A DNA stretch of 64,000 bases from Polychytrium aggregatum. Lineage: Eukaryota; Chytridiomycota; Chytridiomycetes; Polychytriales. The notes beneath the pieces are model-generated. The model was not told the DNA's origin, made no database searches, and saw nothing but the letters and a program-made list of their open reading frames with translations. The stretch spans positions 62,001 to 126,000 of the forward strand of contig NW_026516247.1 in NCBI RefSeq assembly GCF_025602895.1, given 5' to 3'. Below, in pieces: positions 53,932 to 55,798 of the stretch (the stretch's first letter is position 1; every line of letters starts with the position of its first letter). The translations under genes and the position numbers were made by a program.

Positions 53932-54300
53932 GCTTCCGGGATCACGATGGGCTCGGAGCAGATGCCGTTGCTTTTCGGGTCCCTTTGCTGGACGACGCAG
54001 GCAGCGGCCTCGACTCGCAGCGAGCGGTTGGCGAGGTCCTGGCGCCGAATCGGCCCAGAACGAGCCCACAAGGAGCAGCCCGCCACTACCCCTGGTGCGA
54101 GCCCAGGCACTATGGATGCGGAGGCCGAGATGTGTCCCTTGGATATCCATCCCATGGAGCTGCTCTGCGGCCGATGTCTCATCGACCGAGTCCATCGCGG
54201 CAGTGCAGGCGCCGATCGACATCATTCGGCTGGGTAATTGATCGACATCACTCAACCCACATATACACAGGATCCCGCTTCAGTCAAGAGAGCTGTATTA

Positions 54301-54606
54301 GGGCAATCCAAAAAAAACGGGACACCCGGGTATTTGACCATTCATCGAATATTTTGTTACCCAATGTTATCGCGCGCTGGCCATGACCATTCGCCGGACA
54401 GTGTGGAATCGCGACGTCAATGCGGCGCGCAACATGATCACAGTATGCAGGTCGATTGTGGAGATCGGAGAGCGACCGGTGGTCTTCACTCGGAGGCTGC
54501 CAAAGTGATCTGTTTTATTTCTTGTGGCTTTGCTTGACGCAAGCACAGCACATACTACATGTTCATGGAAACGGCTATATTGTCCCGTTTTTTTCTGAAT
54601 AAAGTG
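54301..54606 (+). mobile_element. Non-autonomous TIR transposon with OrfB/Fanzor-like tail (copy C)
   Basis: About 306 bp. The left end gggcaatccaaaaaaaacgg then gaca (54301-54324) and the right end tgtcccgtttttttctgaat then aaagtg (54581-54606) are inverted relative to each other over the inner 14 bases (a7-c-ggg-aca). Both are bounded by TA (54299-54300 and 54607-54608), as for Tc1/mariner-like insertion. Inside is a 41-codon open frame with the OrfB/TnpB/Fanzor C-terminal signature. The arrangement is that of a MITE, an internally deleted element that kept its ends and the 3' part of its gene. It shares its left part with copy A and its right part with copy B. Confidence 0.8.
54383..54508 (+). 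pseudogene. C-terminal remnant of OrfB/TnpB-Fanzor-like nuclease
   Basis: 41 codons from the ATG at 54383 to TGA. The string TVWNRDVNAARNM matches the RD-x-NAA-x-N signature that carries the last RuvC-like catalytic Asp of TnpB and its eukaryotic relatives, the Fanzors; it is followed by a short basic tail. Everything before it (N-terminal domain, first RuvC Asp and Glu motifs, and zinc ribbon Cys pairs) is missing, so no activity is possible. Fanzors are known from chytrids as RNA-guided DNA endonucleases carried by transposons. The family call rests on a 12-residue signature plus the flanking inverted repeats. Confidence 0.7.
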
Positions 54607-54791
54607 TAGGGCCCTGGAAATGGCGACACAGGCTGACCTCAGAGCCAGCGCCAAGTCGGGGCGTATGCTCCAAGCCGGACATCGACACATTCTCGAATCC
54701 GATCTGATTGGTATCGAAAGTGCCTCCAGAACCGGAGAAGCAAGAAGCAAGGCGCATTGTGTGGAAGGATACAAGGCAAACCGGCGCAGAA

Positions 54792-55478
54792 TTATGAGCT
54801 GAGGTACTTTTTGATGAGGTCGGCCTTCTTGTCCTTAGGCTGAAACCGGACTCGGGCGTTGCGGAGGAGATCCTGCAGCTGGGCAAGGGATAGCTTGTTG
54901 AGGTCCTCGGTGACGATCCTGTTGATGATCAAATCGACAAACTCTTTCTTTTCGGTGGCGCCGCGGGTGCTGACGCTGCGCTGCCACAGCAGAATCCGGA
55001 GCTCCTTGCCAGACATCTTCTGGAGCTCCTTGACGGTGTGCAGGGCCAGCGTCTTGGGAATGGGCTGGCTGGTTGCGGACGGGAAGGGCCGGTACTTTGG
55101 CGGGGCCGACGACTTTGACGACCCAAACATCTTGAGGACAGGACCAAGGCCCTCGACAACCATGCCCACCAAGATGACGACGATAAGGGCCGTGGTCAGG
55201 GCTTTGCCGATGAACGTCCACGGGCTCCGGGCCCTTTCATCGTCCTCTTTTTGGAACTCAAGCTCGAGTGGGTCGTCCGGTTCGAGAGATGCGGCGCCGC
55301 AGCAAGACTTTTGCGGGGCCTTGCGACGACGAGTCGAGTTGGACTCGTGGAACTCCTTGATGTCCTCTTCATTGAATGTCGAGTCTGAGCCCTGGTCGGC
55401 CTGGGCGGAGCCGTACTTGTGGATGTTGCGGATGAACTCGCGCTCCTCGTCCGAGTCGATTTCTTCGATCTTTGGCAT
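54792..55478 (-). CDS. Single-pass membrane protein with SAP/MANF-C-like domain
   Basis: An intronless minus-strand gene of 228 aa starting [20 protein letters not shown] at 55478. The ORF is open further upstream, but this ATG opens the first acidic, protein-like stretch and leaves 320 bp to RuvB-like 1. Residues 1-85 are acidic and Lys/Arg-rich, with a CC pair (KSCCGAA). [19 protein letters not shown] near residue 100 is one membrane segment. The C-terminus holds two short helical motifs: [20 protein letters not shown] followed by [20 protein letters not shown], and [20 protein letters not shown]. The first resembles the SAP-like C-terminal fold of MANF/ARMET and related proteins, in which an LR-x-LL-x-x-R-x-V string is followed by a G-x-x-EK/KSEFV turn. 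I do not recognise the exact family. Confidence 0.7.
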
Positions 55479-55798
55479 GCTTGCGAATGGACGGGGATAT
55501 CCAAAGAGCCAGATGGAGATATCGAGAGCGCCGGATGGGGCACGAGGACGGAAAGGGCTTGTGGGGCGCTGGACGGTGTCGCACGCTGGTTGGTGCGCAG
55601 CAAAGCCGGGGCGGCTCGCGTCTCCGCGCGGCTCCAGCCACCCGGTTCGAGCCGCACCGGGGCGGATGGCGCCAAGCGTCAATCCTCCGCCCATGCACCA
55701 GGAATCCCTCTTGCTGCGTCAAGATCTCGACTGTTTCCGCCCCCGAGCCCATCTGCACCCATTCACACGCAAGCCGCCACCCCGCTCCTGCCAGCAGC
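55479..55798. promoter_or_regulatory. Divergent promoter region upstream of RuvB-like 1
   Basis: 320 bp between two divergent start codons, so both promoters are inferred to lie here. It is GC-rich, with no clear TATA box. Confidence 0.4.

Follow-up and report, generated by a model that had tools for sequence, protein, structure and literature searches.

A 306-bp MITE of Fanzor origin in Polychytrium aggregatum, derived by internal deletion from a Tc1-like element, and left-junction scars that may reflect RNA-guided homing in trans

The 306-bp unit at positions 54301-54606 of the window (the whole 64,000-nucleotide stretch of Polychytrium aggregatum DNA that was analysed) is an internal-deletion, non-autonomous derivative of a Tc1-like element of about 3.74 kb that carries a DDE transposase and a Fanzor1 nuclease, and it retains both terminal repeats together with the 3′ end of Fanzor and the right terminus. 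The unit is almost certainly a ghost MITE of Fanzor origin. The flanks and junctions of its family argue, with a probability of about 0.58, for a transposon whose spread or retention is aided by an RNA-guided nuclease in trans, through a chain of guide supply and repair reconstructed from genomic sequence. Flank asymmetry and junction scars, neither of which appeared in the initial annotation of this DNA, bear most directly on a guide function, and they are the new part of the analysis as far as the accessible portions of the literature searched allow.

The initial annotation had described a unit of roughly 306 bp with inverted ends beside TA, and this description proved correct, as the coordinates are exact and the repeat is discrete. 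The unit is bounded by TA at 54299-54300 and at 54607-54608 and shows the following parts.

54301-54606, plus strand: MITE (ghost) from a Tc1-like/Fanzor1 composite element, 306 bp, recognised from repeat copies and shared ends.
54299-54324, plus strand: left terminal inverted repeat including the TA; the inner 14 nt at 54311-54324 are perfect.
54581-54608, plus strand: right terminal inverted repeat including the TA; the inner 14 nt at 54581-54594 are perfect.
54607-54608, plus strand: right copy of the TA.

The two 14-nt inner segments form an inverted repeat without mismatch, and the outer parts of the left and right terminal repeats differ in sequence. Copies of the MITE have an imperfect terminal inverted repeat of about 28 bp that starts with TACA. 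In the 64.7-Mb genome (418 contigs), at least 40 near-full-length copies (93-100% identity, 297-310 bp) and one partial copy were found; this number is a lower bound because 40 of 1129 candidates were scored, and it includes some copies on duplicated contigs. Pattern counts allowing up to two mismatches gave 394-401 left ends and 320 right ends for the whole family at all lengths. The short length, terminal inverted repeats, many copies, TA at both ends and lack of a transposase characterise the unit as a MITE. A convergent open frame of 308 aa, with no Pfam match at E 0.01, starts about 190 bp downstream of the MITE on the minus strand (54795-55718 of the window).

Full-length copies sharing both ends exist, as had been expected, at about 3.4-3.8 kb instead of the anticipated 2-3 kb. 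Six were read in part and four of those were extended to the left end, three of them with a span of about 3.74 kb and the fourth of about 3.64 kb. At its right end the MITE is 95.8-99.5% identical to the six copies over 214-215 bp, and at its left end it is 96.8-97.9% identical to the four over 94-95 bp, which divides the unit as follows.

54305-54395, plus strand: left part common with full-length copies, comprising the left end, the leader and the first transposase codons.
54393-54606, plus strand: right part common with full-length copies (95.8-99.5%, six copies), comprising the last 37 Fanzor codons, the 3′ region and the right end.
54392-54395, plus strand: deletion junction between the transposase start and the Fanzor 3′ end, with an overlap of CGCC with copy F1 and of GCC with most others.
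54383-54508, plus strand: chimeric ORF of 41 codons, stop included, reading MTIR followed by RTVWNRDVNAARN...

Between ends like those of the MITE, the full-length copies carry a transposase gene upstream of the Fanzor gene, and the MITE has in them a longer partner that shares its ends and encodes a DDE transposase. The transposase of copy F4 has 310 aa from Met and matches Pfam DDE_3 (E 2.8e-24), and the D-D(34)E spacing was read by eye; the frame is broken or altered in copies F1, F2 and F3. This transposase half of the parent element was absent from the initial annotation, whose proposal of a non-autonomous derivative keeping the gene 3′ end and the right end is nevertheless borne out by full-length copies with both ends. 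Longer copies are present and encode Fanzor, and neither of the two genomic outcomes that had been named as counting against the proposal (no longer copy, or an unrelated protein) was found. With the Fanzor ORF lost and both ends and the stop-to-right-end region retained, the unit has the composition of a ghost Fanzor locus. Another class of deletion derivative, about 1.1 kb long, occurs at C57:155097, C57:731761, C93:35614, C135:134670 and C168:195435; the only copy of this class that was read, L122, contains part of the transposase, the Fanzor zinc ribbon and the right end.

The 41-aa ORF joins the transposase start, MTIR, to the last 37 Fanzor residues. Because the first four transposase codons are fused to the last 37 of Fanzor, the peptide is chimeric and keeps only the final catalytic Asp. 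The last 37 residues are 93-97% identical to Fanzor frames of up to 861 aa, and 56 of the 150 places listed for this match are frames of at least 800 aa. The earlier assignment of all 41 residues to the end of a Fanzor/TnpB protein thus stands for the last 37, and fails for the first four, which belong to the transposase. An exon reading of the Fanzor piece was rejected, as the piece is a deletion remnant.

The Fanzor of the parent element is about 790 aa long (reading frames: 809 aa in five copies, 824 aa in the sixth) and matches PF07282 in Pfam (E 1.7e-9). Alignment of seven Fanzor sequences, five of the parent family and two of a sister family, revealed that IDPG (Asp), NEFNTS (Glu), the four zinc-ribbon Cys and the final RD are invariant, corresponding to D540, E716, C723/C726/C749/C754 and R760-D761 in the numbering of the first row; full-length copies with D-E-D RuvC motifs and a zinc ribbon, which had been predicted, are thereby established. 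A profile search against solved structures gave weak matches, with SpuFz1 as the best (E 0.0037) and GtFz1 next (E 0.07), and a structure search with a single sequence placed LaTranC (E 0.28) ahead of SpuFz1 (E 0.68). A protein homologue search yielded no match at E<=0.001. The RuvC D-E-D, the C4 zinc ribbon, the terminal RD and the Fanzor1 affiliation of the nearest solved relatives identify the protein as a Fanzor1. The sister Fanzor family (L060, L061 and L068) shows 41-47% protein identity over matches of 438-583 aa and has a similar TIR core (GTCCCGTTTC...CTGTA). A compact Fanzor family is also present, with a 477-aa frame, a length of about 1.78 kb and the ends CCGCTAAC...CCAGGCG. Two inverted copies of this compact element flank a segment of about 5 kb at L040/L041 (C124:404004-412288) and at L044/L045 (C379:91328-99612), and the left flank of the segment on one contig is the right flank on the other, which would fit its inversion through recombination between those copies.

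The part of the MITE that would matter for an RNA-guided function is its right end, where two features are proposed by comparison with SpuFz1.

54509-54608, plus strand: candidate guide-RNA scaffold from the Fanzor stop to the right end (fold z-score -2.73), by analogy with Saito 2023.
54609-54623, plus strand: right flank as would-be guide, 14-15 nt by analogy with SpuFz1 (Saito 2023).

The 98 nt that separate the Fanzor stop from the right end contain two predicted hairpins, at 54523-54554 and 54560-54601, with modest fold z-scores of -2.73 for this region and -2.43 for a longer piece. The gcttgacgcaagc hairpin pointed out in the initial annotation is present, at 54532-54544, two bases away from the 54530-54542 given there. 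An Rfam search of the right-end region returned no match, and minor-allele cells in 25 MITE sequences (0.0206 in the 3′ region vs 0.0175 in the ORF remnant) showed no extra conservation of the 3′ region. In the sister family L060/L061/L068, a terminal hairpin is seen by eye, and in a comparison for covariation the 5′ arms do not align. Transcription of a guide RNA from the MITE right end is predicted by analogy, and guide supply in trans followed by homing is plausible and gains support from the junction scars described below.

The sequence in front of the left end is strongly biased, and the bias includes the window copy.

54297-54300, plus strand: ATTA left flank; the T before the left TA is nearly invariant among listed copies, giving a putative Fanzor target-adjacent motif.

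Flanks were read, contig by contig, from places where the family end is matched without mismatch. The matches listed, the first 100 of the 401 left ends, comprise 89 distinct flanks. Of these, 85 have a T in front of the left TA and 71 have A or T one base further upstream, whereas the background frequency of T before TA in the window is 13.5% (n=2538 TA, both strands). Among the matches listed for the right end (the first 100 of 320), 83 of 86 distinct flanks start with TA, and A follows this TA in 14 of the 86. If the TA target were symmetric, T on the left and A on the right should be equally frequent; the difference between the two sides is significant among the matches listed (Fisher p 2e-29). 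At 21 MITE sites, which carry no Fanzor gene, T precedes the left TA in 19 (with TA changed to TG in one of them) and A follows the right TA in 3. The unit therefore has conserved bases upstream of its left end, as expected of target-adjacent bases at a ghost locus. The left-flank bias fits a Fanzor target-adjacent motif (A/T)TTA that would include the duplicated TA, in the same manner as CATA for SpuFz1, in which a conserved CA precedes the left inverted repeat and the TAM is CATA according to the available text of PMC10432273. An IS605-type insertion after TTAC without duplication was considered for the TTAC left flank and was set aside because of the DDE_3 transposase, the TA that starts nearly all listed right flanks and the pre-insertion site implied by the scars.

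Aberrant left ends occur in a minority of copies, and these mostly hold the first bases of the copy's own right flank, joined to the element by microhomology. The window copy is of this kind.

54301-54304, plus strand: GGGC where the family has CAGGC at the left junction, equal to the first four right-flank bases; putative repair scar.
54609-54612, plus strand: GGGC, the first four right-flank bases, matching copy.

A non-C base after the left TA, with the following GGC intact, was found in 24 places, which are reduced to 15 distinct sites after merging duplicated contigs (C168:155994 was merged with C362:2142 from the left junction alone, and no right end was found there). Right flanks were obtained for 14 of the 15, and at 12 of the 14 the aberrant base is the same as the one directly after the right TA, the agreement extending to the first two bases at 10. 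The two failing sites are C386/C400 and C124:162030/C401:129389. The right end has CA instead of TA at the latter and also at C52/C334:248046, which fits; C124:162030/C401:129389 would match if its left boundary were moved two bases, a post hoc adjustment. Three fitting copies lie beyond the non-C pattern, namely the window copy (GGGC), L031 (11 nt) and C112:281172 (7 nt).

When 16 distinct aberrant left junctions were compared with their own right flanks, 15 matched in at least one base, 13 in at least two and 12 in at least three. The summed match was 65 nt, against 5.8 nt expected from the flanks of other copies, and none of 20,000 random flank assignments reached 65 nt, the maximum being 23. 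Microhomology of 1-5 nt between the flank piece and the element was present at 12 of the 16 sites. Because the scar idea arose from the first few sites, the comparison was repeated on 11 later-examined sites including both misses (C124:162030/C401:129389, which lay outside the 16-site test, was scored as a miss here): nine matched in at least one base, eight in at least two and seven in at least three, with a sum of 33 vs 3.5 expected and 0 of 20,000 random assignments reaching it. Matches of a single base, which could be point mutations, are limited to L038 and C2, and two flank bases were seen at C179:411690. Scars occur in MITEs and also in longer copies such as C24:628978, of about 3.7 kb. 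The longest right flank retained in a scar is 11 nt, which lies within the cut distance of 16-21 nt given for SpuFz1 in the available text of PMC10432273. Mirror scars, sought as right ends deviating at T or at the last G of GTG, numbered 0 and 0 compared with the 24 left-end deviants, although the mirror patterns tolerate no change in a stretch of seven T, which makes them less sensitive than the one used for the left side. Before insertion, the scars imply, the sites read TTA followed by the right flank. At C223:703363 and C280/C411, divergent relatives of the left end seemed to be deep scars and are not tests of the scar idea; no family right end was found in the 3.9-4.0 kb read at C223 and C280. 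A right-truncated MITE copy, L014, is also present, and its appearance is unlike a mirror scar.

A sequence of events that would connect these observations can be proposed. The transposase of full-length copies would move the MITE into TA sites. The MITE right end would be transcribed into a Fanzor guide RNA, the guide being the right flank of each copy, and Fanzor supplied by full-length copies would use this guide in trans to cut the unoccupied allele or sister at (A/T)TTA followed by the right-flank sequence. Repair would then use the occupied chromosome as template, the right broken end copying the element into the cut and the left broken end being joined by microhomology. With a cut downstream of TTA, the left broken end would consist of TTA and a few right-flank bases, and its imprecise joining to the element would leave a left-junction scar while the right junction stays perfect; the window copy, reading TTA-GGGC-AATCC with the right flank TA-GGGC, could be such a product. 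With the right flank as the Fanzor guide, the need for TTA and the restriction of scars to one side would both follow from a single enzyme. That the scars are a genomic record of Fanzor homing in its natural host, where it would cut unoccupied chromosomes at TTA plus flank and repair would insert full-length elements and MITEs by copying, is put forward tentatively, at odds slightly short of even. If correct, RNA-guided cut-and-copy would be what retains a DDE cut-and-paste transposon and its MITEs, and the question of what Fanzor is for would be answered; the MITEs would then draw selfishly on two machineries supplied in trans, one a transposase and the other an RNA-guided nuclease. The target motif (A/T)TTA is predicted ahead of biochemistry, and the roughly 400 left ends, the partners with transposase and Fanzor and the readable scars make homing or retention testable from DNA and simple assays.

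The principal alternative is an ordinary MITE with no guide role, in which an asymmetric transposase prefers TTA and strand transfer at the right end only produces the scars. The free target 3′ end would be extended through right-flank bases and the left end joined by microhomology, so that the predicted junction equals the observed one, and the differing outer terminal repeats make an asymmetric complex conceivable. This explanation, however, requires both orientation locking and one-sided failure; Sleeping Beauty, a Tc1/mariner relative, is described in the accessible part of the source as integrating predominantly at TA, and in SpuFz1 the conserved dinucleotide before the left repeat corresponds to the measured TAM (available text of PMC10432273). 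It is regarded as unlikely, while still a serious competitor to RNA-guided retention in trans. A decoy parasite, whose guide RNA mainly titrates Fanzor off full-length copies and lowers their retention, would agree with the abundance of the MITE and its possession of the right end of full-length copies, but decoy action alone leaves the TTA asymmetry and the scars in MITE copies unexplained, and this explanation is improbable. Least credible of all is a functional chimeric 41-aa peptide, for example a regulator of the transposase or of Fanzor, for although the listed MITE copies show an open 56-aa frame and codon position 3 is more variable than position 1 (0.0281 vs 0.0086 in 25 MITE sequences), the peptide has neither the zinc ribbon nor the first two catalytic residues, a Pfam search of it gave no match, and the full-length sources could have passed on the bias between codon positions.

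Since Fanzor1 elements of the mariner type and the ghosts of Spizellomyces punctatus are known, the element is a new example within an established type. The "ghost" Fanzor loci of S. punctatus keep the guide-RNA end and lack the ORF, and Spu-1 comprises 134 ghosts and 42 loci with full or partial Fanzor, as reported in the available text of Saito 2023 (PMC10432273); ghost loci as possible guide suppliers were already suggested in its discussion, and the same paper, which showed Fanzor activity, stated that the natural role of Fanzor is unknown. In the accessible portions of that source, Spu-1 ghosts resemble the present MITE in having inverted repeats without a Fanzor ORF, a retained omega-RNA-like right end, large numbers and conserved bases upstream of the left repeat, which in Spu-1 match the TAM. 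They differ in being about 550 nt long with inverted repeats that deviate from the Fanzor repeats at seven positions, whereas the MITE of 306 bp results from one clean deletion; no transposase was found within the Spu-1 repeats, in contrast to the parent of the MITE with its own DDE transposase; and junction scars are not mentioned for the ghosts in the text available. Bao and Jurka 2013 (PMC3627910) described Tc/mariner elements (PUl-1, PGv-1, PUl-4 and SPu-1) with Fanzor1, terminal inverted repeats and TA duplications, some Fanzor1 elements having a Mariner-like transposase as in the parent element; MITEs are undescribed in the part of that paper available, and "mite" occurs 0 times in its main text. 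In a plasmid gene drive with IS200/IS605 TnpB (Mears 2025, PMC11870625, available in part), the element-free copy is cut with an insertion-site guide, as proposed here; that system is bacterial, plasmid-borne, based on a different transposase and experimental, whereas Fanzor homing in the present case would be a conclusion from genomes. Viral MITEs of the IS200/IS605_NA group likewise share ends with a TnpB-type element, their longer partners coding for TnpB alone; the accessible part of PMC6004678 contains no guide-RNA region, target motif or scars for them. In the open-licence literature, as far as its text was accessible, no description was found of junction scars or of a Fanzor-derived MITE with a transposase-bearing parent.

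The history of individual sites was followed at 17 MITE insertions. No empty counterpart was found at any of the 17 by a joined-flank search, which skips very common words and in which contig pairs are possibly duplications. Eight of the 17 sites are present on two contigs, five with the MITE on both and three with elements of different lengths, where a MITE is paired with a copy of about 3.7 kb (L007/C301), of 1.1 kb (L013/C168) or of about 3.6 kb (L021/C223). The flanks agree within each of these three pairs, and at L021/C223 the MITE and the longer copy also have an identical scar. A repeated left flank up to TTA is common to L011 (C358:153916-157038), L125/L129 (C13) and L126/L130 (C24); two of these three contigs carry an element (a MITE and a copy of about 3.5 kb) with different right flanks, and the third continues without one. 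About 200 bp upstream, L011 contains in addition a fragment of the right end in inverted orientation. At C101:204979 (AATA) and C119:14846 (AGTA), the left flank lacks TTA and the right end lacks TA, GTG being followed directly by TG, which suggests that these two copies inserted without target duplication.
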